A stretch of DNA of 64,000 nucleotides from a virus: positions 1 through 64,000 of IMG/VR virus record IMGVR_UViG_3300009128_000011; one strand, written 5' to 3'. The notes beneath the pieces were generated by a model. The model ran no database searches. It worked only from the letters and a program-made list of their open reading frames with translations, and had not been told where the DNA came from. Positions 611 to 56,595 of this stretch are shown here, piece after piece (position 1 is the stretch's first letter; every line of letters begins with the position of its first letter). The position numbers were made by a program, and so were the translations under genes.

Positions 611-1570
611 CTACCAGCCCGCGTCCGCGGGGGTGTCCTGCTGTGCGGCCTTGAGGTCCGCCAGCTCCTTCGTGATGTCCCGTCCGGCCTGGCGCAGCGT
701 CTCCGTCGGCATCGTCGCCTCGTCGGCGAACAGCTTGCCCTGGCCGGTGATCCCGTGCTTGACCAGCGCCTGCGGCGCGTTCGCCGGCGCGTTCGGCAGG
801 CTCATGGCCTGGTTGGCCAGCTTGTCGATCTGGTGCTGCACGTCCTTGCGGCTGTTCGTCGCCCACGGGTCCGCCGGCGCCGTGTCCGCGGGGGGTGTCT
901 CCGGCTGCGCGGGAGGGGAGGCAGAGCCGGGAGCGGCCTCCCCTCCCGCGGCCGGACCGCCCTCCGAAGAGGAGGAGGAAGGCGGCGTGCTGGTGTCGGG
1001 CGCGGCGCTCTCCGCCTCGCCGGCGGCAGCGCTGTCCGTCAGGGACGAGCGGTGCGCCTTGAGGCCGAGCCGGTCCTCCTTGTCGCGGAGGGACAGCCCG
1101 AAGGCGGTGCCGAGCAGAGCGGCGGCGCGCTTGAGCGCGGCCGTCTCCGCCCCCCGGATCGCCGTGTCGAAGTTCGGACCGAGCCCCTCCCCCTGCCGGC
1201 TGTCGCACGTCCCCGTGCCGGGGTAGAAGCCCCCGTCCTTGATCACGAGGACCACGCTGCAGGTGGCGTACACCCGCCATTTGCCGGAGATAACGACCGG
1301 GTCCATGAGCAGCCGCGGGGGGTCGGTGTGGTAGGCGCCCCACCCGTCCTCGCCGAACAGTCGGTTGAGCTGCCGCACCACGTGCTCGCCCGAGAGAAAC
1401 GGCTTGTCGAGGTCCCCGACGACGCCCTTCTCCTTGTCCTCCCCCACGAAGTGGATCGGGGAGTCGGGGTGCTCGAAGTGCGGGAGGGACTCCCGGATGA
1501 CGCCCTTCTGCTCGGGGGTGAACCCCCTACCGAAGGCAAGCGCTGCGACGGGCTTCTTGGGGTCTGGCAT
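611..1570 (-). CDS. Rad52-family single-strand annealing protein
   Basis: Likely recombinase that anneals complementary single strands, working with the adjacent SSB. The diagnostic stretch is near residue 135: RGAETAALKRAAALLGTAFG followed by LSL, the GAxTxALKRAAxxLGxAFGxxLYD pattern of phage and eukaryotic Rad52 (Rad52/22, DdrA-like). The N-terminal half has the mixed alpha/beta annealing-core features (YATCSVVLVIKDG); the C-terminal third is a low-complexity Ser/Pro/Ala linker ending in a helical tail, possibly an SSB-binding region. The start at 1570 is preferred over the upstream in-frame ATG at 1612 because AGGAG sits 5 bases before it. A good promoter lies at 1597-1625. About 319 residues. 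Confidence 0.88.
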   Translation of the reverse strand: MPDPKKPVAALAFGRGFTPEQKGVIRESLPHFEHPDSPIHFVGEDKEKGVVGDLDKPFLSGEHVVRQLNRLFGEDGWGAYHTDPPRLLMDPVVISGKWRVYATCSVVLVIKDGGFYPGTGTCDSRQGEGLGPNFDTAIRGAETAALKRAAALLGTAFGLSLRDKEDRLGLKAHRSSLTDSAAAGEAESAAPDTSTPPSSSSSEGGPAAGGEAAPGSASPPAQPETPPADTAPADPWATNSRKDVQHQIDKLANQAMSLPNAPANAPQALVKHGITGQGKLFADEATMPTETLRQAGRDITKELADLKAAQQDTPADAGW

Positions 1571-1596
1571 GTGGCTCCTATCCTTGGCTGGGGACC

Positions 1597-1625
1597 ACGG
1601 TACAGGGGACATATCCCAGAGTCAA
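1597..1625 (-). promoter_or_regulatory. Promoter for rad52-like/ssb operon
   Basis: Reading on the minus strand, TTGACT (1620-1625) and TACCGT (1597-1602) are separated by 17 bases, a sigma70-type promoter. It would give a leader of roughly 20 bases carrying the AGGAG site of the Rad52-like gene. It lies back to back with the promoter of the XRE regulator, which could bind here. Confidence 0.6.
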
Positions 1626-5977: not shown

Positions 5978-6792
5978 TCGACCTGAACGACCTGCCCGAC
6001 GCCGTCGTGAACACCCTCAACGTGCTGACGGACGAGGCCGTCGAAAAGATCCCCGTCACGCACGGTTCCGTCCTCGTCCGCGACGGCTACTCTGTCGAGC
6101 ACCTGGACGACCGGCCGCCGGCGCGCAAGCACGCCGTCAACGACCTCCCCTCTCTCCTGGCGTGGGCCAAGCGGTGGGGGAAGCCCGAGGAGTCCACCCT
6201 GTTCTGCGATCCCGGCGGCTTCGTCCTCGTCCTCGACGACACCGGCAGCCAGGAGGTGGGGCGCGAGATCGTCAGCTACCACCCGACCCTGTCGACCGCG
6301 GCCAAGGCGTGGCTGGGACGCGGTGCGGCCGGCGCCCCGTGGACGAAGGAGCACATCCCCTTCAAGCGCTTCGTCGAGGAGCGCGCCGACGACCTCGTCG
6401 ACCACGAGCTGCTCGACGCCGTCCTGCGCTTCAAGACCCGCACCGAGTTCTCCTACGACGCCGACCTCGAGGACGGGAAGTCCGTCAGCTTTACCGTGGT
6501 GAGCAAGCAGGGCTCGGGGAAGGGGGTCGTGACGCTTCCCAAGGTCTTCTCGATCCGCATCCCGCTGTTCCGGGGGACGGTCAACCCCGAGACCGACGAC
6601 GAGCGGCTCTACGACGTCGAGTGCCGGCTCTCCTACGAGCAGGTGGCCGACGGGTCCAAGATCGCCTTCGAGGTCCGGCCGCAGCACGTGGCCGAGCTGA
6701 TGGACAAGGCGCTCGCCGACCTGGTCGCCGACGCCAGGGCCGACCTCGGGCCGGCGTGGCTCATCGTGTCCGGAGCCCCCTGCTACCGGTGA
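5974..6792 (+). CDS. DUF2303-family phage protein
   Basis: 272 residues beginning GTG 5974 in a GTGA overlap. It matches the layout of DUF2303 proteins: a short beta-rich N-terminus ending in the bipartite RKHAVNDLPSLLAWAKRW, a central region with FKTRTEFSYDADLEDGKSV, and a beta-rich C-terminal part listing strand-like segments (FSIRIPLFRG, LYDVECRLSY, KIAFEVRP). Function is unknown in the family, which occurs in phage early operons next to recombination genes. Probably cytoplasmic. Confidence 0.78.
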   Translation: MIDLNDLPDAVVNTLNVLTDEAVEKIPVTHGSVLVRDGYSVEHLDDRPPARKHAVNDLPSLLAWAKRWGKPEESTLFCDPGGFVLVLDDTGSQEVGREIVSYHPTLSTAAKAWLGRGAAGAPWTKEHIPFKRFVEERADDLVDHELLDAVLRFKTRTEFSYDADLEDGKSVSFTVVSKQGSGKGVVTLPKVFSIRIPLFRGTVNPETDDERLYDVECRLSYEQVADGSKIAFEVRPQHVAELMDKALADLVADARADLGPAWLIVSGAPCYR

Positions 6793-11242: not shown

Positions 11243-13852
11243 TCAGTACCACTCCTGCTGCTGGGGCTCGGCCTGCGCTGGTGGCGCCGGCTCGCCCTTC
11301 ACCCCCTCGAGCCCGAGCTGCCCCCGGGGCGGCGACAGGACCGAGTAGCGCACGTTGCCTCGGCGGTCCTTGTCCTCGTACCAGGGGTGTGCCTTGAGGA
11401 TGTCCGTGATCCGGCGCACCTCCCAGTCTGCGTACTCCGACCGAGCCGGCATCGCCGCCGACAGCGCCGTCGCGTTGAGGAACAGCCGACGCCCGTTCGG
11501 ATCCCAGCCGCCGAGCAAGAGCGGAAGGTCGACTGCCGTGCTCCCTGTCCCGATGCTGCGTCGGACCGTTGTCAGACGCCTGCTCCCGTGGTCATCCAGA
11601 ACCGCCAGCGGGACGTCCAGCACGTACTCCAGGAAGCGTTGCTCTTGAGGCCCCGACTCCCGCAGCTCCTCACATGCCCCTGCCTCGTAGGACTGTAGCA
11701 GCGCCTCCCACGGCTCCCCCAGCATCTTGAGCATCATCGCCGCGGGGATCACGTTGCGCGCCAGCCGCACGGGGATCCCCGCCTCGTCTGCCCCCCTCCT
11801 GACCGTCTCGTACTCGTCCAGAAACCGTGGGGCGTGACAGGCGAGCCCCCACGACACCACCGGCCGCAGCCTGGCGAGCAACTCCTCCTGCCCCGCCAGC
11901 GGGCTGGCGTGCCCGGGCTCCTGCACTGTCCGCACCTGCCAGAACCGGTTGAGATCCTGGTCCTGCGGCGGCCCCGAGATCCCCGAGTAGATGAGCGGGC
12001 CGAGCAGCCGGCACCGCTCCACCTTGCTCGACCGGTTGATCGTGCCCCGGGTCATGTACCCGACCCGGTACATATCGAAGATCAGGTCCCGCTGCCGCAG
12101 CGACCGCGGGTTGTTCTCCACGTCGTCCATCACGCACGCCGCCGACTTGTTCCCGAACTCCTGCATGAGCGTGTACGGCGTGGCGTTTCCCAGCTCCAAG
12201 ATGTGCTCCGACAGGGCGAACAGCGCCGTGCACAGGTTCGACTTCCCGCTGTTCGTCTGCCCCTGGATCCACACCCAGGGGGGCTCCCCGGGGATCGCCG
12301 GCGTCAGCGGCACCGTCAGCGTCGTGGCGGCCAGGAAGTACGGCACCAGCGCGCTGTCGAACGTCCACCGGCCGAACAGCTCGCACAGCTCGTGGTAGGC
12401 CGCCCGGATCTCGTCCGGCGTGTGCACCGACGGCGTCGACCGCACCTTGCCGCTCGGCGCCGAGAAGTGGCCAGCCACGATGGGGGCCGGCAGCCGCTCC
12501 CACGCGCTGCCCGAGAAGACGAACGTCCCCGCCTTGGAGATCGCCGCCACCTCGTCGCCCAGTAGGTGTACCCCGTCGGCGATCTCGTCCTCCGGCACCG
12601 GCTCCGAGCATACCTGGCCGAGGATCTCCGCCACCTGGTTGCGCGCCTTCTTCTCGTCGAACCGCTTGAACACCCGCTTGACGTTGCCCTCGTCGTCCTT
12701 CTTGTCCTCCCACACAGCCCCGAGCTTGTGCTTCGCGCTCTCCCACTTCGGGCCCAGCGCCACGCCGAGACGGGTCTCGTTCGTCGCCTGGTTGATCGGG
12801 ATCTCCACCCGGCGGTCCCGGTAGCACACCAGTGACCCGCCCAGGCTCCCGATGGGCAACACGCTCCCGAACAGCTTGCGCCACCGGGCCAGCGGGCGGA
12901 GCTGCGCCACGATGTCGTCCGGCAGGCTCGACGCCCCCGCCACCTGGTCCCCCTTCTCCAGGCGCTTGATCTGGTTGTCCACGCACCGGGTGTAGCTGCG
13001 CCGGCGGTCGCTGTCAGGATCCTGCTCCACCCCCTGGCGCCGGCACACCTCGTCGATGATGCGCAACAGGCCCTCGCGGTCGTAGTGCTGCTTGAGCAGC
13101 AGACCCGTGACCGACCGCCACGTGATCGTTCGCGACTTGCCGTCTGGCGTGCCAGGCCCACCGCTGAAGGGGACGAACGGTACGAGCACCGCGACGATAC
13201 GTGCCCGATAGAAGGCCTCCACCCCGTCGTCCCACCGCAGCCCCCCCTCGTACTTCGGGGCAAGGCGCTCCGCAGGCTTCGGCTCCCAATCGCCGATGTC
13301 CTCCACGGCGTCGAGCAGCTCGCCAAGCTCGTGGTGAGAGACCGGCTCGCGCGGTGGGGACGACGGGTGCGCAGGCAGGTAGTAGACCCGGCTGGCGTCC
13401 TTGCACTTCTCGTCGAACGCCCCGTCCCACTCCTCGTACCACTTCGCCCACAGGGTGGCGTGCACCGCCGAACTGACCGGCGTTGCCAGCGGGAGGACCA
13501 CCCGGAACCGGTCGCATGCAGGCGCAACGAAGTTGCCCTTGTCGTCGTACTTGTCCACCCAGTGGGAATAGGAGGTGTGCAGGACGTACTCGAGCCCCAG
13601 GCTCTCCAGGTGGCGCATCACCTCGGGGATCGTGATGTTCTCGTCGAAGTCCAAGACGAGGGCCGTGACCTGCTCCACGCCCTCCTTCGCCCGCGTCTGC
13701 CCCGTCGGGTAGACCGTCGGGCTCCACAGCACCCCTTCCTTCCTGTCGCGCTCGTCGAACTCCATGAAGGGGTCCGGCCAGTCTACGCCAAGCGGCCTGG
13801 GTACGTTGTCCTTGAGGTTGTCGAAGCGGTCAGCAGCGAACGTGTCAAGCAC
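11243..13852 (-). CDS. Archaeo-eukaryotic-type primase fused to a P-loop ATPase/helicase
   Basis: An 869-residue protein that probably primes and drives phage replication. The N-terminal third has AEP/PrimPol features: LVLDFDE (DxD at 68-70), HTSYSH (92-97), RFRVVLPL (115-122) and ASRVYYLP (153-160). The C-terminal half has a P-loop GQTNSGKS (531-538), an acidic Walker-B-like MDDVENN, and downstream Arg-rich motifs, in the manner of phage primase-helicase (SF3/D5-like or DnaB-like) proteins. Start GTG 13,852 has only a weak ribosome site, but a 15-codon reading frame with a good site overlaps it, suggesting translational coupling. The putative origin lies just upstream. Confidence 0.8.
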   Translation of the reverse strand: MLDTFAADRFDNLKDNVPRPLGVDWPDPFMEFDERDRKEGVLWSPTVYPTGQTRAKEGVEQVTALVLDFDENITIPEVMRHLESLGLEYVLHTSYSHWVDKYDDKGNFVAPACDRFRVVLPLATPVSSAVHATLWAKWYEEWDGAFDEKCKDASRVYYLPAHPSSPPREPVSHHELGELLDAVEDIGDWEPKPAERLAPKYEGGLRWDDGVEAFYRARIVAVLVPFVPFSGGPGTPDGKSRTITWRSVTGLLLKQHYDREGLLRIIDEVCRRQGVEQDPDSDRRRSYTRCVDNQIKRLEKGDQVAGASSLPDDIVAQLRPLARWRKLFGSVLPIGSLGGSLVCYRDRRVEIPINQATNETRLGVALGPKWESAKHKLGAVWEDKKDDEGNVKRVFKRFDEKKARNQVAEILGQVCSEPVPEDEIADGVHLLGDEVAAISKAGTFVFSGSAWERLPAPIVAGHFSAPSGKVRSTPSVHTPDEIRAAYHELCELFGRWTFDSALVPYFLAATTLTVPLTPAIPGEPPWVWIQGQTNSGKSNLCTALFALSEHILELGNATPYTLMQEFGNKSAACVMDDVENNPRSLRQRDLIFDMYRVGYMTRGTINRSSKVERCRLLGPLIYSGISGPPQDQDLNRFWQVRTVQEPGHASPLAGQEELLARLRPVVSWGLACHAPRFLDEYETVRRGADEAGIPVRLARNVIPAAMMLKMLGEPWEALLQSYEAGACEELRESGPQEQRFLEYVLDVPLAVLDDHGSRRLTTVRRSIGTGSTAVDLPLLLGGWDPNGRRLFLNATALSAAMPARSEYADWEVRRITDILKAHPWYEDKDRRGNVRYSVLSPPRGQLGLEGVKGEPAPPAQAEPQQQEWY

Positions 13853-13892: not shown

Positions 13893-14546
13893 GCGGTCTC
13901 CCTGTCGACAACGACGGGCCCGGGGCCGGTCAGGGGCGACAGGGAGTCCGTAGAACCCTGCCGGCCAACCGGCCCGCCTCGCCCTCGGGTCGCGACCCCC
14001 GAGGACTGGAATGACTCCAGGATGCCCCAGCCCCGCCTCGGCGTCAACCAACCGGCCCGACCTCAGCCAGGTCGCCAGGTCTCAAGTCGACCTGGCTGAG
14101 ACCTGGCTGAGTAGATCCGGGGGGTCTAACTATCTATTACTATTATAGATCTTCTTCTACTACTACTACTGCTCAGCCAGGTCGCCAGGTATAGGGGTCT
14201 ACGTGAATTACATGCGGAGAAGGAGAGGGAGGAGATCGGATCCGTGATCGGGTCATGTGAATAGGCACGCATCGCGCTCTAGACCTGGCGACCTGGCTGA
14301 GAGTCGACGAATCGGCAACGATCAAGGATGGTTAGGCCTCAGCCAGGTCGCGGTCTTCCTCTGGCTGAGACCCGGCGAGATGCCCCACAACGACCGACGC
14401 CCCCGACCATGGGGCGTGGCAGGGGGCGTCAGTCCCGTCAGGCCACGGATCAGCGTCCCGACGGTGCCAAGGTGCCCGGGGACAGGAGTCGCCCGAGCTC
14501 TTGACGCCAGGCTACCACCCCCCGCCGGAGGCGAGCAAGGGAGGGG
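13893..14546. other. Non-coding region with putative replication origin
   Basis: About 650 bases without a convincing gene between the primase and the next minus-strand gene. It holds the repeat cluster listed separately, an AT-rich core at 14,126-14,172 in otherwise very GC-rich DNA (TATCTATTACTATTATAGAT), and CCCTGTCG...CGACAGGG arms at about 13,908-13,947. The position directly upstream of the primase, repeats, and a melting-prone core together suggest an origin of replication. Possible reading frames across it (for example 14,257-14,658) translate the repeats in varying frames and are not credible. Confidence 0.55.
14062..14369. repeat. Iteron-like direct and inverted repeats
   Basis: The 19-mer CTCAGCCAGGTCGCCAGGT occurs exactly at 14,062-14,080 and 14,172-14,190 and as its exact reverse complement at 14,283-14,301. 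Shorter pieces are at 14,089-14,100 and 14,101-14,111 (two tandem inverted ACCTGGCTGAG), 14,338-14,351 (direct CTCAGCCAGGTCGC) and 14,361-14,369 (inverted CTGGCTGAG). The second full copy abuts the AT-rich core. Such clusters usually bind an initiator or regulator protein. Confidence 0.85.
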
Positions 14547-14882
14547 CTACAGGGCCAGGATCTCCCAGTACAGCCCGTGTTCGTCCCGGCCGACTGCGCC
14601 GAGGCCGATGGCGAACTTCCGCCGGATGGCGTCGAGGGATGGGAAGGGGATGCAGTAGGAGGCGTAGCCCCCTGCCTGCCGGTTCATCAGTCCCCATCCC
14701 CCTTCGGGCAGCGGGCGCGCTACCGTATCGCAGAACAGGCGCGTAGTGCCCGAAGGCAGGCTATTGACCCGCTGGCGGACCCATCCGGCGCCTCGCTCAT
14801 CGATGCCCTCCCCCGGCCTGACCGCATCCCGGGCCTCCCGCTCGTTCTTCGCCGCGAAGCGGTTCTCTGCTGCTGCACTCAT
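14547..14882 (-). CDS. Hypothetical protein, 111 residues
   Basis: Begins ATG 14,882 in an ATGA overlap with the upstream gene. The N-terminus is charged and helical (AAKNEREARDAVRPGEG), followed by beta-like segments (GTTRLFCDTVARP, GLYWEILAL). No family recognised. Last gene of the cluster driven by promoter cassette A, ending beside the putative origin. Confidence 0.65.
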   Translation of the reverse strand: MSAAAENRFAAKNEREARDAVRPGEGIDERGAGWVRQRVNSLPSGTTRLFCDTVARPLPEGGWGLMNRQAGGYASYCIPFPSLDAIRRKFAIGLGAVGRDEHGLYWEILAL

Positions 14883-15328
14883 GCCGTCCTCCGAGTCGTC
14901 AGCGCCTGCTCCAGGTCCCGGACCGCACCGGCCACGCCGCCGGGCCCGTACTGGATGCCCATGGTGTAGATCTCCTCCCCGTCAGCGTCCCGGGCCAGCT
15001 CGATCCGGCCGGCCTTCGCCGCCGCCTTGTCGATGGCCAGGAAGCCCTGAGTCCCGAGGTCCACCCGGTAGGTGTCCCCCCCCCAGGCCGTCACCTCCGC
15101 CCGGTGACCCTGCACCTCGATCACCCGGCACGGCAGCGCCGGCCCCGGCGTCCCCTGCGTCCCACCCATCCCGCTGTCCCGGTACACGTGACCCGGAGGC
15201 ACCAGCCCCAGCCCGCCGCACTCGAAGCACTCGCCGCTCGCGACGTGCTTGAACTGCGGGAGGTACCCCGTCCCGCCGCAGCGGGTGCAGCGCTCGGTCG
15301 GGTCCGCGAGGTCGTTGGTCGTCGGCAT
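14879..15328 (-). CDS. Protein with DnaJ-type zinc repeats
   Basis: 149 residues. Two CxxCGGxG units (CTRCGGTGY near residue 14, CFECGGLGL near 34) are the zinc-finger repeats of DnaJ and related small binding proteins; the rest is beta-rich (CRVIEVQGHRAEVTAWGG, TYRVDLG) and ends in a helix. It lacks a J domain, so chaperone activity is not implied. ATG 15,328 directly follows the preceding stop. Confidence 0.68.
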   Translation of the reverse strand: MPTTNDLADPTERCTRCGGTGYLPQFKHVASGECFECGGLGLVPPGHVYRDSGMGGTQGTPGPALPCRVIEVQGHRAEVTAWGGDTYRVDLGTQGFLAIDKAAAKAGRIELARDADGEEIYTMGIQYGPGGVAGAVRDLEQALTTRRTA

Positions 15329-15598
15329 CTACTTGGCCTCCAGCCGCACCGCCCACCCCCCGTGGCTGTCGCCCACCAGGGTGAGACCGGTGCCGTCGTC
15401 GTACACGGCGACCTCGTCCGTGGCCCACGCCTCGACGAGCAGCTCGCCGAAGAGAAACTCGAGGCCGTTGATCCCGCCGTCCTCGATGCCCACGGCGAAC
15501 CCCTCACCTTCGGCGTTGAGGCGGTCCCATGCACTCGAGGCCATGTTCTGGCACGCCTGCGTGGTGGGGGCGGTGCGGATCATGGTGGCGGTAGGCAT
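15329..15598 (-). CDS. Hypothetical protein, 89 residues, under promoter cassette A
   Basis: Starts at ATG 15,598 with GGGGG seven bases upstream, 33 bases after the predicted transcription start. Composition is acidic with beta-like segments (GEGFAVGIEDGG, LEFLFGELLVEAWATDEVAVYDD, GGWAVRLEAK). No family recognised. First gene of a three-gene minus-strand cluster. An in-frame extension through the promoter is possible on paper but is rejected because it would translate the promoter. Confidence 0.65.
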   Translation of the reverse strand: MPTATMIRTAPTTQACQNMASSAWDRLNAEGEGFAVGIEDGGINGLEFLFGELLVEAWATDEVAVYDDGTGLTLVGDSHGGWAVRLEAK

Positions 15599-15697
15599 CG
15601 TGTCCCCCGTGCTGTTGTGTTCCCTGACCATGCGTACATAGTAGCAACGAACCCGGGGGTCGTCAAGGGAAAAGCGCACGAGGGGCGAGAAAAGATC
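15599..15697 (-). promoter_or_regulatory. Promoter cassette A
   Basis: One of four 99-base cassettes with identical geometry. Read on the minus strand: GATCTTTTCTCG, a GTGCGCTTTTC block, -35 TTGACG (15,661-15,666), exactly 17 bases, -10 TACTAT (15,638-15,643), six bases, then ATGGTCAGGGAACACAACA at the predicted transcription start, and a 33-base leader ending in the gene's ATG. The T-rich tracts may act as an UP element, and the G/C-rich half-sites as an operator. Confidence 0.78.
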
Positions 15698-31283: not shown

Positions 31284-32617
31284 CCGCCGTCCACCCCGCC
31301 CTCCCCGAGGTCGACGCCTGCCTCGCCGCCCTTGGCCACGGGCGCCCGATCCGCGATGCCCTCAAGATCACCGACGAGCAGCTCGCAGCGATCCAGGAGC
31401 GGCTCGGGGTGGCGCTGGACCTCGAGGGCGAGCTCACCGTCGGCATCATGGCCGAGTGGACCCCACGAGCCCGGGAGGCGCTGGCAGGTCTCGACGACGT
31501 GCTGGAGGCGGCGGGAGGGGACGTCGACGCGGTGGTCGCCGCCCTCGGTGAGGAGTTCAAGGGCATCGGGAAGGTGCTGGAGCCCCTGGTCTCCGACAAG
31601 GTCGGCGTCGCCTACGACACCGAGCGGGTGGCGGTCATGCGGTCGGGGGCCATCTCGGAGGCGGCCAGCTTCGACGTGGTGGACGTGGCGGCCAAGGAGT
31701 GGCTGGACAAGGACACCGTCTACTGGGTCGATAACGCCTACGACCGGGTGATTGGCAAGCGGGTGGCGACGGTCGTGAGCGACGTCGCCGTCGAGCAGGG
31801 GCTGGGGACGAGGGCCGCGGCGCAGGCGCTCCGAGAGCAGCTCCCCCCGGAGCTCCTGGGGAAGAAGCCGCGGGGGTACTTCGAGGTGGTGGCTTCGAGT
31901 GCTACCACGCGGGCCAGGACGTTCGGCGCCATCGCCAGCTTTGAGCAGGCGAACATCGCCTCGGCGCAGTACATCTCGGTCCTGGACCAGGTCACCTCCC
32001 GGATCTGCCGGGAGCTGGATGGCCGTGTCTACCGCGTCGAGGTGCTCACCGAGCTGCGGGACCGCATGCTGGAGGCCGACTCGCCTGAGGCGGCGAAGGA
32101 GATCATGCCCTGGGTGCCGGCGTCTTCGTTGCAGGGCAAGGCCACGGAGCAGCTCGAGGCGGAGGGTGCGATCATACCCCCCGCACACGGGAGATGCAGA
32201 TCGAGCCTGGATATCTTCGTCTCCGAGGGGACCGTGAACCAGACCGCCGGCCCCCAGGCCGCCCCCGAGACGACCGGAGCGTGGGGCGCCTACTCGGAGC
32301 GGGAGCTGGCGAACAAGCTCAAGCCGATCACGACGAACCCGCCGGCGCTCACGGCCGCCATCGACGCGGACCTGTCGACGGCGCAGGTGGCGAAGGCGCG
32401 CCAGGCAGTGGCGACGAGATCCGCGGTGGTGGGGACGTTCCCGGACGCGAAGGTGGGGCGGCGCATGGGGTTCTGGGACGAGTCCGCAGGGGTCCGCGCC
32501 GAGTTGGACGAGGCGGGGCTGATCTGGGCGGTGGAGGAGATGGGAGCCGGGGACGTGGCGGCTCGACTCGCGGCCGACCGGGCGACCGGCGTGTCGATGG
32601 CGCTGGAGGGACTGTAG
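31280..32617 (+). CDS. Head morphogenesis protein (SPP1 gp7/Mu gpF-like)
   Basis: 445 residues, GTG 31,280 overlapping the portal stop (GTGA). Helical N-terminal half; in the centre SILDQVTSRICRELDGRVY-like (ISVLDQVTSRICRELDGRVY) and, 60 residues later, IIPPAHGRCRSSL, the pair of motifs (T..IC..LDG and pP.HxxCRS) that defines this family. These proteins sit inside the head near the portal and affect DNA delivery. The last 120 residues are a separate region not common to the family. Confidence 0.83.
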   Translation: MTAVHPALPEVDACLAALGHGRPIRDALKITDEQLAAIQERLGVALDLEGELTVGIMAEWTPRAREALAGLDDVLEAAGGDVDAVVAALGEEFKGIGKVLEPLVSDKVGVAYDTERVAVMRSGAISEAASFDVVDVAAKEWLDKDTVYWVDNAYDRVIGKRVATVVSDVAVEQGLGTRAAAQALREQLPPELLGKKPRGYFEVVASSATTRARTFGAIASFEQANIASAQYISVLDQVTSRICRELDGRVYRVEVLTELRDRMLEADSPEAAKEIMPWVPASSLQGKATEQLEAEGAIIPPAHGRCRSSLDIFVSEGTVNQTAGPQAAPETTGAWGAYSERELANKLKPITTNPPALTAAIDADLSTAQVAKARQAVATRSAVVGTFPDAKVGRRMGFWDESAGVRAELDEAGLIWAVEEMGAGDVAARLAADRATGVSMALEGL

Positions 32618-33724
32618 ATGCCGCTCATGGGATGCCAGAAGGACGGGGCCGACGGTTGGAAGTACGGCGAGTCGGGGACCTGCTACGTCGGTCCAGACGC
32701 CAAGCAGAAGGCCATCGCCCAGGGGGTCGCCATGGGGGAGATCAAGGCCGAAGACGCCGCCAAGTTCCAGGGCACGAGCCCGGCGCCAGGGAGCAAGGTC
32801 ACCGTCATGCTCCGCATCCCGGAGCCGCTGGCGGCGCAGTGGCCGGAGCACGACGAGGGCTCCCCTCCCCACTTCACCCTGCTGTTCGTCGGCGAGGTCC
32901 CCGACGACAAGCGCTCCGAGTTCCTGGTGGGGGTGGCGGCGGAGGTCCTCTCCACCGCAGCGTTCGACGTCGAGCTGGCCGAGGGCGTCTCCTGGTTCAC
33001 CTCCACCGGCGAGCATGCCGGCCAGGAGGTGGCCCACAAGGCGGTGGTGGACTCGGCACCGATGGCCGAGCTACACGGCCGGCTGCGGGAGGTGGCCGAA
33101 GATCTCGACATCGACGTCGCCCACGTCGGGGAGGGCTTCAAGGCGCACGCCACCCTGGCGATCCTGGACGAGCGCGAGTACCCGGGCCCCGTGCCGGAGG
33201 GTTCGTTCCGGGCCGGGGTGGTCGAGGTGTGGGGGTACCCCGAGGACTACGTCTTCCCGCTGGCGCCCAAGGTGGTCGTGGCCAAGGCCGCGGCGCCCCC
33301 TCCGGGCTTCACCCTCTCCCTCAAGCTCAACGACGAGCGCCGGGAGGCCACCGGGGTGCTGGCCAAGGCGTTCGACGGGACGTCTGACAGCCTCGACACC
33401 GACGGCGAAGCCCTCACGGCCGAAGACGTCCTCACGCTGGCCCGCAGCTTCATGCTCCAGGAGCTGATCGCCGGCCACGACGACAACCACGACCGGCTGC
33501 CGCACAACCGCCGGCTGGTGGAGATCTTCGTCAACGACGACCGGGTGCAGTCGCCCCTCTTCCCCGCGGACGCCGCGGTGGCGACCATGCACTACCCCGA
33601 GGACGAGGACTGGGCGCTGGTCAAGTCCGGGCAGCGGGCGGGCTTCAGCTTCGACGCTGGGACGATCCCGGTGGTCCGGGAGGTGGAGATCCTGGTGCGG
33701 CCGGAGGAGGTGGTGGGGGCTTAG
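32618..33724 (+). CDS. Fusion: 2H phosphoesterase-like domain and XkdF-like prohead protease
   Basis: 368 residues. An N-terminal small domain (GCQKDGADGWKYGESGTCY, seen in phage-associated proteins), a central part with two H-x-T motifs (HFTLLF 85-90 and HATLAI 177-182), the hallmark of 2H/2'-5' ligase-type phosphoesterases, and a C-terminal part with PLFPADAAVATMHYPEDEDW and VKSGQRAGFSFDAG, which resembles the Phage_XkdF putative protease. The last would mature the capsid; the role of the 2H domain is unknown. ATG 32,618 follows the preceding stop; GGAGG upstream. Confidence 0.72.
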   Translation: MPLMGCQKDGADGWKYGESGTCYVGPDAKQKAIAQGVAMGEIKAEDAAKFQGTSPAPGSKVTVMLRIPEPLAAQWPEHDEGSPPHFTLLFVGEVPDDKRSEFLVGVAAEVLSTAAFDVELAEGVSWFTSTGEHAGQEVAHKAVVDSAPMAELHGRLREVAEDLDIDVAHVGEGFKAHATLAILDEREYPGPVPEGSFRAGVVEVWGYPEDYVFPLAPKVVVAKAAAPPPGFTLSLKLNDERREATGVLAKAFDGTSDSLDTDGEALTAEDVLTLARSFMLQELIAGHDDNHDRLPHNRRLVEIFVNDDRVQSPLFPADAAVATMHYPEDEDWALVKSGQRAGFSFDAGTIPVVREVEILVRPEEVVGA

Positions 33725-34010
33725 GGGGGTTATCGGTCCACCACAGGTAGACGAGGACCATCACGGTAAGGGGCCACACGAGGCCAGCGACGACACAGGC
33801 GTCGGGGGAGTCGCCTTCGTCCAGAGAGTGGGCGATGCTGGACACGATGCCCCACCCGAGCAGGTAGGTTTTGATGTGCACGGCAGTGCGCCACGAGGGG
33901 AATCCGTCGGTCGTGGCGAAGATGACGACGGTTGTCCCCAGGACGAGCGGGAGTGCAAAGCCTGCCAGCAGGGCGTAGGCGATGGGTTGCCACTGGAAGC
34001 CCTTACCCAC
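33645..34010 (-). CDS. Two- or three-helix membrane protein
   Basis: 121 residues from GTG 34,010 (GGGGAG upstream), overlapping the upstream regulator by 8 bases. Transmembrane helices at about 10-30 (IAYALLAGFALPLVLGTTVV) and 77-97 (VAGLVWPLTVMVLVYLWWTD), perhaps one between (TYLLGWGIVSSIAHSLDEG). The poly-Pro tail overlaps the end of the plus-strand protease gene, a convergent overlap of 80 bases. Role unknown; co-expressed with the regulator, so possibly a superinfection- or defence-related protein. Confidence 0.58.
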   Translation of the reverse strand: MGKGFQWQPIAYALLAGFALPLVLGTTVVIFATTDGFPSWRTAVHIKTYLLGWGIVSSIAHSLDEGDSPDACVVAGLVWPLTVMVLVYLWWTDNPPKPPPPPPAAPGSPPPGPPGSSQRRS

Positions 34011-34497
34011 CGGCTCCCCTTTCCACCGGCTCCTTCCAGGCCTTCCAGTGGTTCTTCCGGGCGGCCTTGTCCAGCTCCTCCTTGAGGGTGGTCTCGCCGG
34101 CGAGGAGCCGGAGGACCAGTCGGTCGCCGCCGCACGGGGCCGACTGCCCCAGGTTCCAGCGGCTGACGGTGCCGGGTCGCCGCCGCAGCAACCGGGAGAT
34201 GTCGCCCTGCGTGAGCCCCTGCTGTTCGCACACCTTCTGTAGGAGGGGGTCCTGGAGGGGGATCTGGGGCGTGCGAGAACTCTGGATGGCGACGACCTCC
34301 TTCGGCAAGGTGGTCTCGCAGGCGACCAGGCGCAGCGCGAGACGGTCACCGGCCCGGGGCTGCTGGAGCCGTCTGCTCCACTTCGACACGGTGGCGGTGG
34401 ACCGACCAAGCAACCGCGCTATGTCGGCCTGCGTGATGTTGCGCGTGCGACATGCCCGTCTGGCAAGGGGGAGATGCTTGTACGCTGGGTTACCCAT
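34003..34497 (-). CDS. Double helix-turn-helix regulator (internally duplicated)
   Basis: 164 residues. Two homologous halves: ITQADIARLLGRSTATVSKW with GDRLALRLVACETTL, and LTQGDISRLLRRRPGTVSRW with GDRLVLRLLAGETTL. Each has one Cro/CI-type HTH followed by the same structural element, i.e. a tandem duplication. Such a monomer could bind a palindrome by itself; one lies over its own -35 box. A related single HTH (LTQRGLAQVLGCSHTQASKY) is in the gene at 54,499-54,759. ATG 34,497 is probably leaderless. Confidence 0.75.
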   Translation of the reverse strand: MGNPAYKHLPLARRACRTRNITQADIARLLGRSTATVSKWSRRLQQPRAGDRLALRLVACETTLPKEVVAIQSSRTPQIPLQDPLLQKVCEQQGLTQGDISRLLRRRPGTVSRWNLGQSAPCGGDRLVLRLLAGETTLKEELDKAARKNHWKAWKEPVERGAGG

Positions 34498-34534
34498 GCC
34501 CTCATTCTAGCAGTGGCGTGTTGATTGCGTCAAC
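34498..34534 (-). promoter_or_regulatory. Promoter and palindromic operator of double-HTH gene
   Basis: On the minus strand TTGACG (34,528-34,533), 18 bases, TAGAAT (34,504-34,509), six bases, ATG 34,497. The 15-base element GTTGA-TTGCG-TCAAC (34,520-34,534) is a perfect 5+5 palindrome covering the -35 box, the expected site for autorepression by the encoded protein. Confidence 0.62.
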
Positions 34535-39788: not shown

Positions 39789-42700
39789 TTGCCCCCGAGC
39801 TCCCGGCGCCCGGGTGGCCGGGCTCGGAACCGGGGAGGGTACGTCCCCCCTGGCACCGCGCCACCACCTCCCGAGCCCTTCGACTGCGACGTCCCTCCTC
39901 TCGCCGTCTCCGGCGACCTGCGGGTCATCTGGCTCGTCCCGTACTGGGATCGGCTGGATGGCCTCGTGCGGGGCACGGAGGACCTCTCCGGCTGGCTGGA
40001 CCAGCAGCCCGGCGTCTCGTCGGAGATCTGGTCCGAACTGCCGCCGAAGCGCGAGGGCGCGCTACATGCGCCTGTAGGGCGCTACCTACCGCTGGATCAC
40101 CGTCCGACGGTGGTGGTCTCGACGACGACGGCGACGACCCCGTGGCTGTGCCGCCCGGGCGCGGCGCGGCGCCCCGTCCCCACCGCGGTCTACGTCCACG
40201 GGGAGTCGAGCTGGGAGCCGGTGCGGCAGGCAGGCCTGCTGGACCAGGTGCGGACGTGGTTCGTCCCGTCCGCGGTGTTCGACTGGTCGACGTTCACCGA
40301 CTGGGCCAAGGCGCGCCAGGTGGTGCAGGTGCAGCCGGGCTTCATGCCAGACGCGTACCGCCCCCGCGGGCGCCCCCCGAAGCGGGCGGGCGTCCTGGCG
40401 ATCAACCCGTGCTTCGGCAAGGGGGCGAGGACCCTGCTGTCGATGGCTCGGGCGATGCCGGACGTGGCGTTCACTCTCGTGCTCGCCAGCATCCAGCCGG
40501 CCTACCGAGGATTGGGCGACCTGCCGAACGTCAAGATCGTGCAGCCGCAAGAGGATCTGCGGCCGTACTACGCCCGGGCGCAGGTGTACGTCAGCCCCAC
40601 GCACTCGGAGACGTTCGGCCGTACGGTGGCGGAGGCGCAGGCGGCGGGGACGCCGTGCGTGGTCTCCGACCTGGCGACCCTACGGGCGACCGCGGGGGAC
40701 GGCGCTCTGTACTGCGTCCCTGACGTGGTCGGCCCCTGGGTGGAGGCGTGCCGGGCCATCCTGGACGACGAGCAGACGTGGCAGGAGCGCTCCGAGGCGG
40801 CTCTCACCAACGCTGCCCGCTACGAGGCGCAGGAGGACTTCCACGTCTTGCTGTCGACGCTGCGTTCTCTGGCGCCTGCGGTCGCAGCCCCCGTGCCCCG
40901 GACGCGGCCGCAGGCGCCTCCCCCCCCTCCTGCGGCGTGCCGGGAACTCCCTCGTTCCGGCGACCCCTTCCCCCAGGGCGCCGTCCTCCACCTCGGCGCC
41001 GGCGGGAAGCGGGTCAAGGGGTACGTCAACACGGACGTGCGCAAGGCCCAGGCCCCCGATGGGGTGGTGGTGGACGTGCAGCGGACGCCGCTGCCGGCGC
41101 GGCGCTTCGGCGCGATCTACGCCTGCCACCTGCTCGAGCATCTGTACCCCGAGGAGACGGTCCCGATCCTGCGCCGCTGGCTGCAGGCGCTTCAGCCCGG
41201 GGGGACCGTCCGGCTGTCGGTCCCCGACCTGCGGCTGGTGGTGGCCAACTGCGTGGAGTCGCAGTCGTTCGGGCCGAACCCCGACGCGCCGCTCTTCGGG
41301 GACTTCCGCAAGGCGGCCCACGACTGGGACCGGCACAAGCGGTCGTTCACCGTCGAGATCCTGACGCGCCTGCTGGGGGAGGCGGGCTACGTCAACGTGC
41401 GGCCGTGGGTGCCGTCGCAGTACCCCGAGATCGCTGCGGTGCGGGACTGGAGTTCCTACGCCACGATCTCGCTCAACCTCGAGGCCGACCGGCCCGAGGA
41501 GCGCGCGCTGACTCCGACGCTGCCGGGGGGGCCGACCCCTGTCGAGGCGGCTGCGCCCGGGGAGCACGTCGAACTGTCGGTCATCATCGGGACCTACAAC
41601 CGCCTGGAGATGCTGCAGACGTTCGTCGCCAGCGTGCGCAACGGGGTCGTGCTGGCCGGGGCCGCAGAGCCGATCTGCTCCTACGAGTTCGTGGTCGCGG
41701 ACGGCGGTTCGACCGACGGGACGCTTCCCTGGTTGGCCGAGCAGCATGACGTGCGCGTGGTGCACGGTGGGCTGACGGGAGCCATCGACGCGTTCAACGC
41801 GGCCTACGAGGCGTCTTGGGGCGAGCTGGTCATGCACGCCAACGACGACACCCGCGTCGAGGGCGACGGGGTGGCCGTGGCGGTCGAGTACCTGCGGGCC
41901 CATCCCGAGGTGGGCCAGGTGGTCTTCGAGTGGACGCGGGACGGCGGGAAGACCTGGAGGCACGACGGGACGCAGCTCGGCGACGTGCCCCCGCACCCCA
42001 ACCAGGCGGTGACGCGCCGCCTGGCCATCGAGGACACCATCGCCCACGAGCTGGGCGCCTTCTGGGGCGATGAGGAGCGCCGGACGCACAAGACCTACGG
42101 CGGCGACACCTACCAGTGGGTGGTGCTGGCGCGGCGGGGGTGGCAGGCGGTGGGGCTCCCGGGGCGCTGCCGGATCCACGACTACATGCACGAGGCGGAC
42201 GACGAGCTGCGGGAGGCCAACCTGGTCGGGACGGGGCCCGGGTCGGACCACGCGCTCAACTTCCGCAAGATGTCCGGCGTCGGACGGCCCGGATGCTGGG
42301 ACCTCGAGATCCCCGGGAGTGGGTGGCCGCACGTCTACGTGGCCGAGCCGGGCCGGCCGGCGCGGCGTTCGCCCATCGCCGCCGGGCCGGAGGAGCGTCC
42401 TCTCGTGCTCCACATGGGGTGGGGGCCGGAGCCGCTGGACGGTCTGCGCCGGGCCTTCGCTCGCATGGGGCCGTACCGGGACGTGCCGTGGGTGCCGTTG
42501 CTCAACAACGGCGGCCCTCCGGCCATCGAGGAGGGGGTGCTACGCGCCGCCGCCGAGCTGCAGCCGACTCTGGTCTGGATGCAGATCCAGCGTGGCGACC
42601 AGTTCCCCATGAGCACGATCCGCAAGCTGCGGGAGGTCGTGCCGCCGGAGTGCCTCCTGATCTCCTGGAACGGGGACGTCCGAACGGGGGGGACGGCCTC

Positions 42701-43409: not shown

Positions 43410-43954
43410 GGCGGCTGCGCCGGTGGCTCGTCGGGGACCGCGGCTTCGTGGTGTGGCTCACCGGTCTGCCGTGCTCGGGCAAGACCACGATGGCGAACCT
43501 GCTGGCGGGGGAGTTGCGTCGCCGTGGGCGCGGGGTGCTCGTCCTCGACGGCGACGCTGTGCGAGGAGGGCTCTCCTCCGATCTCGCCTTCGGGGACGAG
43601 GACCGGGCCGAGAACCTGCGCCGGCTACGGGAGGTTGCCCGGCTGGCTGCTCCCCAGGGGCTGGTGGTGGTCGTGGCAGCCATCACGCCCTACGAGAGCG
43701 AGCGGTTGAAGGTCCGCACGATGCCCGGGACTCTCCTGGCCTGGTGCAACGCGCCGGTGGCCGTCTGCGAGAGGCGGGACGTCAAGGGGATGTGGGCCAG
43801 GGCAAGGAAGGGGGAGATCGAAGACTTCACCGGGGTGGACGGCCCCTACGACCAGCCGGCCACGTTCGACGTGCAGCTCTACACGGACTCGCTGACGGAG
43901 ACAGCCGCGTTGCGGCAACTCTGGACAGCGCTTCGGGCCAAGGGGTGGGTGTGA
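43403..43954 (+). CDS. Adenylylsulfate kinase-like protein (CysC family)
   Basis: 183 residues. Has P-loop GLPCSGKTT (21-29), LDGDAVRGGLSSDLAF (48-63) and the APS-kinase signature DEDRAENLRR, then TPYESER. The normal reaction phosphorylates adenosine phosphosulfate to PAPS, a sulfate donor. No sulfotransferase is visible nearby, so either PAPS feeds a host enzyme or the kinase acts on a sugar (CysC-like kinases occur in glycan clusters). GTG 43,403 overlaps the preceding gene by 7 bases. Confidence 0.85.
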   Translation: MLRRLRRWLVGDRGFVVWLTGLPCSGKTTMANLLAGELRRRGRGVLVLDGDAVRGGLSSDLAFGDEDRAENLRRLREVARLAAPQGLVVVVAAITPYESERLKVRTMPGTLLAWCNAPVAVCERRDVKGMWARARKGEIEDFTGVDGPYDQPATFDVQLYTDSLTETAALRQLWTALRAKGWV

Positions 43955-44880: not shown

Positions 44881-44881
44881 C

Positions 44882-45646: not shown

Positions 45647-45909
45647 TGTCCTCCTCGCAGCATCCACCATCTCTCCTTGGTGCACCCCGGGTGCCTGTGC
45701 TCGGGACCTACAAGGCGCGGTGCATGGATCCGTGTGATCATGAGGCCTGCAGAAGGGCGCGGGAGATCGTGGGTGCTGTGTGTCCTCTGTGCGGCAAGCC
45801 GGTGGGGCATGAAGGTTACTGCGTTCTCCGTGCGGGTGACTACGCGCACGCTGAGTGTGCCCGGGACGCCATCACGATAGGGGAGATCGACCCGGACAGC
45901 GTCCGATGA
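45646..45909 (+). CDS. Small zinc-ribbon protein with unusual codon use
   Basis: 87 residues; ATG 45,646 shares a base with the preceding stop. C-M-D-P-C-D-H-E-A-C, CPLCGKPV and HAECA suggest two metal sites. Codons here end in T or A more often than in flanking genes (for example GGT, TGT, CTC/CTT mix), hinting at another origin. No specific family recognised. Confidence 0.62.
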   Translation: MSSSQHPPSLLGAPRVPVLGTYKARCMDPCDHEACRRAREIVGAVCPLCGKPVGHEGYCVLRAGDYAHAECARDAITIGEIDPDSVR

Positions 45910-47579: not shown

Positions 47580-47588
47580 GAGGTCCCC

Positions 47589-53816: not shown

Positions 53817-54290
53817 CTACTTCGGCACCTTCCACCGGTCGGTAATCACCCGGACGGCGGCGAGGCAGAGGGCGTGCGGTAGGCAGTCGCCCTCGACGGT
53901 CCAATCGGCGCTGTAGGGCTCCATGTACACGCTCACCTGCTCCCAGAAGTGGATCGCCACGTTCCCCTCGTCGTCGAAAGTCCAGATCCAGTGCGAGGGC
54001 GAGTAGATGCGCTGTAGTCGCCTCCACACCTTCCAGCCGGCGGCGAGGTTGGTCGAGAACTGGTCCGGCATGTCCCCGGGCCGGATCCCGTAGGTGTCGG
54101 GCTCTATGCGATCCGGCAACCATGTCCGGGCCTGTACCCAGGTCGGGTCTTCGTCGGCTTCGTGCGTCCAGTGCAACACGCGCTTGACGAAGCGGCCCGG
54201 GCGCTCGAACAGGTAGGACTCGATCCAGGCGTCCAGTTCGACGCCGGCACGGAGCTGGTGTGGCTCGGGGTGGGGGAGCCGGGGCATCAT
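53817..54290 (-). CDS. Hypothetical protein, 157 residues
   Basis: Starts at ATG 54,290 (ATGA overlap) or one codon later. Trp-rich: WIESYLFERPGRFVKRVLHW, IYSPSHWIWTFDDEGNVAIH, YSADWTVEGDC. Perhaps a compact enzyme or binding protein, but no family recognised. Last gene of the minus-strand island driven by cassette D. Confidence 0.6.
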   Translation of the reverse strand: MMPRLPHPEPHQLRAGVELDAWIESYLFERPGRFVKRVLHWTHEADEDPTWVQARTWLPDRIEPDTYGIRPGDMPDQFSTNLAAGWKVWRRLQRIYSPSHWIWTFDDEGNVAIHFWEQVSVYMEPYSADWTVEGDCLPHALCLAAVRVITDRWKVPK

Positions 54291-54502
54291 GGCGCCTCCA
54301 GCAGCCGCACCTTCCGCAGCCACCGCGGGGACGCGCAGACCACCTCGTGCAGGTAGCCCGCCGGCACGTCCCAGAGGACGGGGACCGAGCGGCACCGTCT
54401 CGGAGCCTGGCAGGCCATGCAGTGGTCCACCGTGCCGAAGCCGGCGCACTCGGGGTCGACATCCTCGACGCGCTCGCCGGGGGTGAAGTCGGTCGCCCTC
54501 AC
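54287..54502 (-). CDS. Small Cys-rich protein, 71 residues
   Basis: GTG 54,502 overlaps the upstream stop (GTGA). Cysteines in C-A-G-F, HCMACQAPRRC and VVC suggest metal binding. No family recognised. Confidence 0.56.
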   Translation of the reverse strand: MRATDFTPGERVEDVDPECAGFGTVDHCMACQAPRRCRSVPVLWDVPAGYLHEVVCASPRWLRKVRLLEAP

Positions 54503-54759
54503 GACGCCTTCTTCCTCCGGTCCGGGTGGTCCAGCCGGGCCTGATCGACCTCGTCCCGCAGGCGGTAGGACCAGTGCTCGGGGGGGTCGAGGGCGAGTTG
54601 CTGCAGGTCGCGCTCGAACGATCCGGTTGGGGTCGCCAGCCCCCGCACGTACTTCGACGCCTGCGTGTGGGAGCAGCCGAGCACCTGGGCGAGGCCGCGC
54701 TGGGTGAGGCCCGTCACCTGGCAGGCGGTGCGGGCGAGGGTGGGGGTCTTGGTCTTCAT
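54499..54759 (-). CDS. Helix-turn-helix protein
   Basis: 86 residues. ATG 54,759 is preferred over upstream in-frame starts because of its GAGAACGAGACC context and overlap with the preceding stop (ATGA). The HTH is TGLTQRGLAQVLGCSHTQAS, followed by a KYVRGLATPTGSFERDL element. Related in form to the double-HTH protein at 34,003-34,497. Possible regulator of this island. Confidence 0.7.
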   Translation of the reverse strand: MKTKTPTLARTACQVTGLTQRGLAQVLGCSHTQASKYVRGLATPTGSFERDLQQLALDPPEHWSYRLRDEVDQARLDHPDRRKKAS

Positions 54760-55070
54760 GGGGTCTCGTTCTCCTTGGTGGTGGGATCCCAGCTCCGGAC
54801 GCACATGATGGTCGAACCGTCGGGCAGCCCTTCGTTGAGCAGTGCGCAAACGAGTGCGCGCACCCCGGGCTGGTCGGCCACTTCGAGCCGGTCCAGAAGC
54901 ACGGGACAGACGGAAACGGCTCTGCGCTCCCTGGCCTGCTCCTCTCCTTCCTGGAGCGTGGCGTAGAACCGGATGCGGCGAGTCCGCACGACCCGCGGCG
55001 TCCCGTCCGGACTCGGGTGAGCGCTCGGGCGCTCTTCCTGCCAGGTGACTCGGTAGACGGTGGCAGTCAT
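54756..55070 (-). CDS. Hypothetical beta-rich protein, 104 residues
   Basis: ATG 55,070 follows the preceding stop. Strands YRVTWQEERPS, RVVRTRRIRFYATLQEGEEQ and a C-terminal SWDPTTKENETP. No family recognised. Confidence 0.57.
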   Translation of the reverse strand: MTATVYRVTWQEERPSAHPSPDGTPRVVRTRRIRFYATLQEGEEQARERRAVSVCPVLLDRLEVADQPGVRALVCALLNEGLPDGSTIMCVRSWDPTTKENETP

Positions 55071-55265
55071 CTAGTTGTCCCTCCCCAGCCGCAGGGGGCA
55101 GGTGTCGCAGGACGGCAGCCCCAACCGGAGGCGGATGACCATCTCCTCCTCGTCGGTGAGACCGGCGTCTTGGATGAGGCGCTCCACCTCCTCTCGCCCC
55201 TCGGGGGTGCGGGCCTTGGCGCGCAGCTCGTCGAGCCTGGTGTCGTCGTCGTTCTTCGTGGCCAT
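55071..55265 (-). CDS. Small helical protein with C-x2-C end
   Basis: 64 residues, ATG 55,265. Charged helices (DDDTRLDELRAKARTPEGRE, AGLTDEEEMVIRLRLG) and a C-D-T-C pair near the end. No family recognised. Confidence 0.56.
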   Translation of the reverse strand: MATKNDDDTRLDELRAKARTPEGREEVERLIQDAGLTDEEEMVIRLRLGLPSCDTCPLRLGRDN

Positions 55266-55267
55266 GG

Positions 55268-55888
55268 CTATGCCAGCGCCTCCACCGTGCCCTCGAACGC
55301 CTGGCCCTGGAAGGTCCACTCGCCGTCGTCCCAGCACTCGTAGGCGGCAGCGGTCTCCCGCACGAACTCGGCCAGCGTGTAGGCCGGCCCGTCGTCGAGC
55401 ATCACGTCGAAGCCGTCGGGCTCGTCCAGGGTGGTGATCCGGTGGGTGGGCTTCCACCCGTCGAGCACGCCGGGCGCCCACTCGTAGGTCTCGTCGCCGT
55501 CGATGGCCTCGTCGATCAGCCGGTCCTGCTCGGCGCGGTAGGCGATCTCGAAGGTGCGCACCGTCTCGGGCGTGGGCTCCGGTCCGGTGAGCTCGTGCAG
55601 CCCGTTCTCGAAGTCGCCGTCGTAGGGGTCGTGGGGCTCGGCGGGGAGCCCGACGGCCTTCGCGTTGCCCTGGGCGCACTCGACGGCGCAGGTGACGATC
55701 AGCTCGGGGAGGAGGGGATCCTCCATCCAGATCAGCCCCGCGTCCTCGGCGGCGACCTCCCGGGCCTCGGCCCGCGTCAGGTCGTCGCAGGCGCCCTCCT
55801 CGGGGTCGGCGTACTTGCAGAGCAGCAGGTTGTGCTCCTCCGCGTGGTCGATGGCGGCGTGTCCGGTCAGGGTGCAGGTGGCGTCCAC
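55268..55888 (-). CDS. Acidic hypothetical protein, about 206 residues
   Basis: GTG 55,888 is chosen because GAGGAGG lies just upstream; an ATG at 55,912 is the alternative. Very acidic with AAIDHAEEHNLLLCKYADPE, DLTRAEAREVAAEDAGLIWM and TFEIAYRAEQDRLIDEAIDG. The charge suggests a DNA-mimic or host-protein-binding role, but this is speculation; no family recognised. Confidence 0.6.
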   Translation of the reverse strand: MDATCTLTGHAAIDHAEEHNLLLCKYADPEEGACDDLTRAEAREVAAEDAGLIWMEDPLLPELIVTCAVECAQGNAKAVGLPAEPHDPYDGDFENGLHELTGPEPTPETVRTFEIAYRAEQDRLIDEAIDGDETYEWAPGVLDGWKPTHRITTLDEPDGFDVMLDDGPAYTLAEFVRETAAAYECWDDGEWTFQGQAFEGTVEALA

Positions 55889-55917
55889 GGTGTCCTCCTC
55901 GGTGTCGTGCATCCCGG

Positions 55918-55933
55918 ACGGGCCGAAGCCCGT
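55918..55933 (-). terminator. UUCG tetraloop hairpin in intergenic gap
   Basis: ACGGGC-TTCG-GCCCGT on the minus strand: a 6-bp stem closed by the very stable C(UUCG)G loop, in the 67-base gap between two island genes. There is no T run after it, so it is more likely an RNA stability or partial attenuation element than a strong terminator. Confidence 0.4.
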
Positions 55934-55955
55934 TTCGTCCGCCGCCGCGGACTCG

Positions 55956-56174
55956 TCAGCGGGCGACGTCCCAGTCCATCCCCTCCCGGCGCCCGTTCTC
56001 CGTCCACTCGGCCCAGCGGGGGAGGTCGGACGGCCTGAGGTCGGCGGCCTGGAGGATGCGCATCCGCACCCCCGCGTCCGTCGCCCCGCACAGGTTGACG
56101 GGACCCTCGACGAACCGCTTGCAGATGCGGGCGTTGGGGCCGTAGGCGATGGTGATGTTGGCGGCCTTGCTCAT
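55956..56174 (-). CDS. Small hypothetical protein, 72 residues
   Basis: ATG 56,174 with GAGGAGGAG six bases upstream. The frame is also open upstream to ATG 56,291, but that extension is poly-Pro, with a weak start. Contains ICKRFVEGPVNLCG, LQAADLRPSDLPRWAEW. No family recognised. Confidence 0.6.
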   Translation of the reverse strand: MSKAANITIAYGPNARICKRFVEGPVNLCGATDAGVRMRILQAADLRPSDLPRWAEWTENGRREGMDWDVAR

Positions 56175-56292
56175 CTTCTCCTCCTCGGTGTCGTAGCCTC
56201 CTACCCCGAAAGCCCCGACCCTTGCGGGTACGGGCGGGGGAGGGGGAGGGGGGCGGTCTAGGCGGCGAAGTCGGGGGAGGAAGGTCTGCATG

Positions 56293-56496
56293 CTACGCCA
56301 GCGCCTGCACCAGCGGGGCGTAGAAGCCGCCGCTGTCCGCGTCCACCTGGTTGCTGTAGTCGACCTCCCACCCATCGGGGATGACCGCGTCGACCTCCTC
56401 GGCGTCCACGCCGTCCGCGTACCAGACGCGGGGGCCGACGGCGGCGTCGAGGTCGATGATGACGGCGTCGAACTGCTGCCGGGGCGTGGCGTCCAT
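56293..56496 (-). CDS. Small hypothetical protein, 67 residues, under promoter cassette D
   Basis: ATG 56,496, with CGGAG eight bases upstream in the cassette leader. Acidic: FDAVIIDLDAAVGPRVWYAD, VDAVIPDGWEVDYSNQVDAD. First of eight genes in the third minus-strand island. No family recognised. Confidence 0.62.
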   Translation of the reverse strand: MDATPRQQFDAVIIDLDAAVGPRVWYADGVDAEEVDAVIPDGWEVDYSNQVDADSGGFYAPLVQALA

Positions 56497-56595
56497 GTCG
56501 TGCTCCGTGTTGTTGTGTTCCCTGACCATGCCTATATGGTACCAACCCCCTTCGTGGACGTCAAGGGGAAAAGCGCACGGTGGGCAAAAAAGATC
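56497..56595 (-). promoter_or_regulatory. Promoter cassette D
   Basis: Fourth copy. -35 TTGACG (56,559-56,564), 17 bases, -10 TACCAT (56,536-56,541), six bases, ATGGTCAGGGAACACAACA, 33 bases to ATG. Upstream GATCTTTTTTGCCCACCGTG with CGCTTTTCCCC; one base is shifted relative to copies A-C, but total length is the same. Back to back with the tail operon. Confidence 0.78.

Follow-up and report, generated by a model that had tools for sequence, protein, structure and literature searches.

Four copies of a 99-base promoter-like cassette precede unrelated gene runs in an uncultured high-GC myovirus

In T-even phages, an intergenic sequence containing an early promoter reportedly provides the joint for the exchange of small genes, as Repoila et al. 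are said to have described in 1994. Early promoters of the T4 type (T4, RB69, RB49, 44RR and Aeh1) occur in many host-sigma-like copies with upstream elements, located before conserved early genes as well as novel ORFs (PMC1524935). In mycobacteriophages of cluster K, the 13-bp SAS (GGGATAGGAGCCC) lies just before the start codon, and ESAS adds 17-bp imperfect inverted repeats upstream (PMC3203893). In mycobacteria, leaderless mRNAs represent about one quarter of transcripts, and only an RTG at +1 is required for them (PMC4633059).

The window analysed here is a stretch of 64,000 nucleotides, corresponding to positions 1-64,000 of a 72,016-base virus record (IMGVR_UViG_3300009128_000011), with a GC content of 70%. 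Genes for the terminase large subunit, portal, tail sheath and baseplate were all present in the window, and the phage is therefore a myovirus. Searches for relatives of TerL, the sheath and a double helix-turn-helix (double-HTH) protein retrieved the same species only, with identities otherwise of 33% or less; the only named relatives found for the tail sheath were Streptomyces phages (about 30% identity across 20% of the protein).

Four 99-base cassettes were found on the minus strand at the positions given by a first-pass annotation of this DNA, each followed immediately by the ATG of a gene. Cassette 1 (15599..15697) possessed an upstream block and TTGACG-17-TACTAT with an extended -10 TGC and a predicted start at 15631, and its 33-nt segment reads in frame with the gene ATG at 15598. 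The same layout was found in cassette 2 (25516..25614; predicted start 25548), which holds the perfect inverted repeat CGCAC-AAC-GTGCG, in cassette 3 (27284..27382; predicted start 27316, reading ATA and not ATG), and in cassette 4 (56497..56595; predicted start 56529), where the GTGCG block is displaced by 1 base. Chance is far from explaining how often they occur and how they are laid out. When a four-copy weight matrix was run across all 72,016 bases, the cassettes scored 109-119 bits and other positions at most about 1.5, with zero further copies in positions 64,001-72,016 of the record. The pattern GATCTTTT-N23-TTGAC-N18-TACnnT-N39-ATG occurred exactly four times in the record, compared to none in 200 first-order Markov sequences. 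At the level of the core, TTGAC-N18-TAnnnT was found at five sites (0.09 expected), all on the minus strand and upstream of minus-strand genes, namely the four cassettes and a Rad52-like gene.

The geometry had been described as identical throughout. The TTGACn/17/TACnnT/6/33/ATG arrangement was indeed exact in all four copies, but GTGCG was located at offset 18 in the copies at 15,599, 25,516 and 27,284 and at offset 17 in the copy at 56,497, where an extra C before TTGAC compensates the one-base shift; identical geometry is therefore limited to the promoter core and the leader. Relative to the predicted +1, the layout comprises GATCTTTT(T/C)T from -66, the GTGCG block near -48, TTTT near -40, TTGACn at -35, 17 bases ending in TGn, TACnnT, and six bases ending in GC. 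The TGn extended -10, which had been missed, was present in all five known copies, the fifth belonging to a sister contig (L002; 8,389 bases, IMG/VR 3300013118). Among these five copies, mean pairwise identity reached 100% in the -35, 81% from +1 to +12 and 80% in the -10, and was 66% in the upstream block, 53% in the spacer and 48% from +13 to +33, the latter with local shifts. The upstream flanks of the cassettes were unrelated (17-35% identity over 40 bases).

Every cassette heads a minus-strand run of genes and not a single gene, which had also gone unnoticed. The first genes after the cassettes had no relationship recognisable by BLASTP, in line with the earlier description of them as unrelated, and nearly all products of the cassette operons lacked a family match (mostly ORFans). 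The genes behind cassette 1 (14547..15598, minus strand) are 15329-15598, 14879-15328 (CxxC zinc-ribbon-like) and 14547-14882, and the operon possibly extends to a primase-like gene at 11243-13852, so that "accessory" may not fit every gene. Behind cassette 2 (23984..25515, minus strand) lie six small ORFans, including one partly duplicated gene (24943-25146 and 23984-24238). A 125-base direct repeat, 94% identical between 24124-24248 and 25032-25156, accompanies this duplication of a small gene (MPTPIDRL...). Cassette 3 is followed by a cysteine-rich 286-aa protein and a 56-aa ORF (26243..27283, lower end approximate, minus strand), and cassette 4 by some eight small genes (53817..56496, minus strand), one of which, at 54499-54759, encodes an HTH protein. 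As first reported, cassettes 3 and 4 diverge from structural operons on the plus strand (TerL at 27,404, and 56,652 onward to the tail sheath, respectively), with which they are back to back; cassette 2 stands back to back with a ribbon-helix-helix gene at 25,657 (+).

By their sequence, the four cassettes look like strong sigma-70-type promoters. The explanation preferred here, to which a probability of about 0.68 was assigned, is that of host-sigma-type promoters of co-expressed operons, with a possible leaderless start and a role as recombination joint. The -35 TTGACn, the 17-base spacer and the extended -10 TGnTACnnT would constitute a promoter of the host primary-sigma type, and the region between -66 and -36, with its A/T-tract and the GTGCG block, would likely be an UP-type or regulator contact. 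Host RNA polymerase would express the four operons together, and would probably do so at an early stage of infection or without dependence on the structural operons; the predicted first transcribed base is the A of the 33-base segment. The earlier proposal that repeated cassettes drive a shared set of accessory genes is retained as the best reading of the sequence, and the term "accessory" is backed by the exchange of the cassette-2 gene in L002 (see below).

Among the described systems, the best view of the cassettes is probably that of an early or accessory promoter set resembling T4 early promoters, the early timing being predicted only. As in the T4-type early set, a repeated host-sigma-type -35/-10 consensus occurs within one phage (four copies and L002), and the cassettes are correctly oriented 5' of minus-strand runs of mostly ORFan genes, whose early class is a prediction. 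Unlike T4 early promoters, the cassettes number only four, in a 70% GC phage, and their similarity continues past +1 to about +12, with a layout fixed to +33. The T4 early consensus, with its GTTTAC-type -35, was absent, the cassette -35 being TTGAC at 17 bases from an extended -10 (PMC1524935); therefore, the cassettes would work like the T4 set but are not the T4 set.

The SAS/ESAS precedent put forward in the first-pass annotation does not hold, and the T4-type early promoter fits better. The cassettes resemble cluster K SAS/ESAS in being short repeats at the beginning of non-structural genes that belong to different families (PMC3203893), but both the 13-bp SAS and the 17-bp inverted repeats of ESAS were absent from them, the only repeat being the 5-bp one of cassette 2. 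Membership in SAS/ESAS was rejected, GGGATAGGAGCCC being missing from the cassettes; outside them it was matched once, in part, ahead of the Rad52-like gene. This gene (611-1625, minus strand) has its own TTGACT-17-TACCGT promoter, and its leader AAGGATAGGAGCCACATG contains GGATAGGAGCC, which covers 11 of the 13 bases of the cluster K SAS and is present as a single copy in the record.

The sister contig L002 matched positions 25,584-33,803 with 3 mismatches in 8,220 bases. Its cassette 2 was identical through TTGAC and then continued with a different spacer, leader and gene, the replacement gene beginning MDAAPPTFTVDN..., yet the 99-base geometry, including the spacing, was kept despite the different core and gene. 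As a near-identical contig carries a different post-TTGAC core, leader and gene at the same spacing, genes appear to be exchanged by recombination within the cassette, which is the simplest reading. The common cassette sequence would then be a recombination joint, with accessory genes exchanged behind a constant promoter. This is similar to the promoter-linked cassettes of T-even phages, in which a promoter sequence is reportedly also the joint for exchanging small genes, with the differences that no conserved stem-loop is present here and that only one exchange was seen. The L002 junction may alternatively be a chimeric assembly, as this metagenomic contig stops a short way past the new start codon and offers about 81 bases of new sequence and a single exchange, but the junction has no long word in common with another known copy. 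The replacement gene was not found in any other viral contig. Two further sister contigs matched the cassette-4 region at 99.99-100%.

The 33 bases before each gene had been described as a leader. Their length is fixed in all four copies, but the segment may be partly coding in most of them, from the ATG at the start site. In cassettes 1, 2 and 4 and in L002, the predicted +1 is the A of ATGGT(C/T)AGGG, and this ATG shares the reading frame of the gene, whose own ATG follows at +34, with no stop between (four of the five copies, and three of the four cassettes of the window; it was missed in the first-pass annotation). A leaderless or dual start is plausible in most copies because of this in-frame +1 ATG, a weaker Shine-Dalgarno (SD) pairing, other genes with a -10/N6/ATG geometry, and the existence of leaderless mRNAs in mycobacteria. 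SD pairing at the cassette gene ATGs ranged from -5.8 to -8.6 kcal/mol, compared to a median of -9.3 kcal/mol for 25 other phage genes, which were hand-picked as well-called ATG starts and not drawn at random (Mann-Whitney p = 0.008). The -10/N6/ATG geometry recurs at two other genes, at 25,657 (+) and 34,497 (-); the former is the ribbon-helix-helix (FitA-like) gene (25657..25827, plus strand), divergent from cassette 2 and with its own promoter, TATAGT-N6-ATG, of leaderless geometry. As in mycobacterial leaderless RTG transcripts, a -10 hexamer is followed at once by an ATG at the start site, which here is a predicted one and holds for four of the five copies (PMC4633059). Unlike those transcripts, the cassettes have a second in-frame ATG at +34, and their starts are predicted. 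Leaderless translation at the +1 ATG may operate in most copies, alongside or replacing the weakly SD-led ATG at +34. Cassette 3, with ATA in place of ATG at that position, is not leaderless, so leaderless initiation is not general.

The main competing view, given slightly less than even odds, is that of ordinary leadered promoters, in which the 33 bases would form a 5' untranslated leader of fixed layout, equipped with a Shine-Dalgarno sequence, and the +1 ATG would be incidental; it concerns the translation start only and leaves the promoter reading unaffected. An ordinary 5' leader is favoured by the gene ATG at +34 in all five copies and by the short purine runs found 5-8 bases before it in every copy, and the lack of the first ATG in cassette 3 points the same way. 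The comparatively weak SD pairing, the exact in-frame ATG without a stop at the predicted start in four of the five copies, and the leaderless geometry of two unrelated genes of the same phage argue against this view.

A candidate regulator of the cassettes is the tandem double-HTH protein (34003..34497, minus strand), the ATG of which follows its -10 by six bases. Its halves are 49% identical (E = 1e-17), and it is related to the single-HTH protein at 54,499-54,759 of the cassette-4 operon (E = 1e-6). The HTH proteins had HTH_31, HTH_3 and MarR Pfam matches and repressor-family matches, with weak, non-significant matches of the double-HTH protein to the P22 C2 repressor and HigA. The promoter of the double-HTH gene (34498..34533, minus strand; TTGACG-18-(TGC)TAGAAT-GAGGGC-ATG; TGCTAGAATGAGGGCATGGG) was the best non-cassette match to the cassette core, with 17.1 bits, only slightly above the 15.0 bits of the best plus-strand background match. 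The cassettes could accordingly be viewed as operators of an immunity or switch circuit, in which the double-HTH and/or the single-HTH protein (54499-54759) would bind CGCmC-N3-GTGCG and silence or time the operons, a possibility that we consider somewhat unlikely. The relatedness of the two HTH proteins, an internal duplication suited to two half-sites, their repressor-type matches, the position of the single-HTH gene within the cassette-4 operon and the presence of GTGCG twice upstream of the double-HTH gene are consistent with such a circuit, but cassette 2 (and L002) alone preserves the left half of the inverted repeat, GTGCG occurs frequently across the genome (268 copies), no integrase was found among the genes scanned, and the single-sequence structure prediction of the double-HTH protein had a mean pLDDT of only 38. 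Binding of the GTGCG block by the HTH proteins is a guess. A more elaborate model appears rather improbable: the cassette would be a standard socket with both an in-frame leaderless +1 start and an SD-led +34 start, from which swapped-in genes would all gain the same promoter and a short common N-terminal tag (MVREHN...), under the control of the tandem double-HTH protein, the gene of which would itself use a leaderless version of the promoter.

Slightly less credible again is the idea that the cassettes derive from a repeated mobile element or moron unit bringing promoter and gene together. The presence of small islands of counter-strand genes, with one promoter per island and conserved operons beside them, would suit it, but the genes behind the cassettes differ, similarity fades shortly past the gene ATG, the flanks are dissimilar, and no cassette beyond chance was found in plasmids, other phages or genomes. 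Homologous cassettes were absent from 50,697 phage records, from 72,556 plasmid records and from viral contigs outside this species, and GTDB genomes provided four matches, of low or moderate GC and in scattered taxa, where about 3-4 are expected by chance according to our estimate. Plasmid matches with E-values of 0.8-10 were without the TTGAC-17-TACnnT promoter core on inspection and were treated as chance, and four extra matches of the leader-only pattern in viral contigs were generic A/T-rich promoters without the upstream block. In an unrelated viral contig (L035; 22 kb, 63% GC), positions 6053-6110 read GTGCGCTTTTTCCCTTGAC-17-TAAATT-N6-ATGGAGGCC, with an ATG after N6; the site resembles the cassette upstream block and leaderless start, lies inside a possible opposite-strand ORF, and may be a chance match, about 0.5 such matches being expected by a rough estimate.

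Gene cassettes of the T-even kind, linked to a stem-loop or terminator whose hairpin ends upstream transcripts and promotes exchange, are very unlikely, as a conserved hairpin or terminator was largely refuted as a common feature: only cassette 2 folds (5-bp stem CGCAC-AAC-GTGCG then TTTT, -9.5 kcal/mol), the other three copies are without a hairpin (-1.1 to -2.9 kcal/mol), and no copy clearly beats its own shuffles.

The host-sigma-type promoter set proposed here has an unusual start-codon layout and shows one visible gene exchange. It offers a sequence-level case, from a lineage of uncultured myoviruses of high GC, in which a promoter may act as a fixed socket and the small genes that follow it differ from one near-identical phage to another. 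The four operons of mostly ORFan genes are flagged as a likely co-expressed set, providing a shortlist for host-takeover or counter-defence functions, and the cassettes raise the testable question of whether phage operons can combine a leaderless start with a leadered one.

Two further features of the window were recorded. An intergenic stretch at 14040-14380 contains several CAGCCAGGTCGCCAGGT / GACCTGGCTGAG copies in both orientations and an A/T-rich run, and could be an origin or a regulator site. Within the structural half, glycosyltransferase, methyltransferase and nucleotide-sugar epimerase matches were found at 39789-48581.
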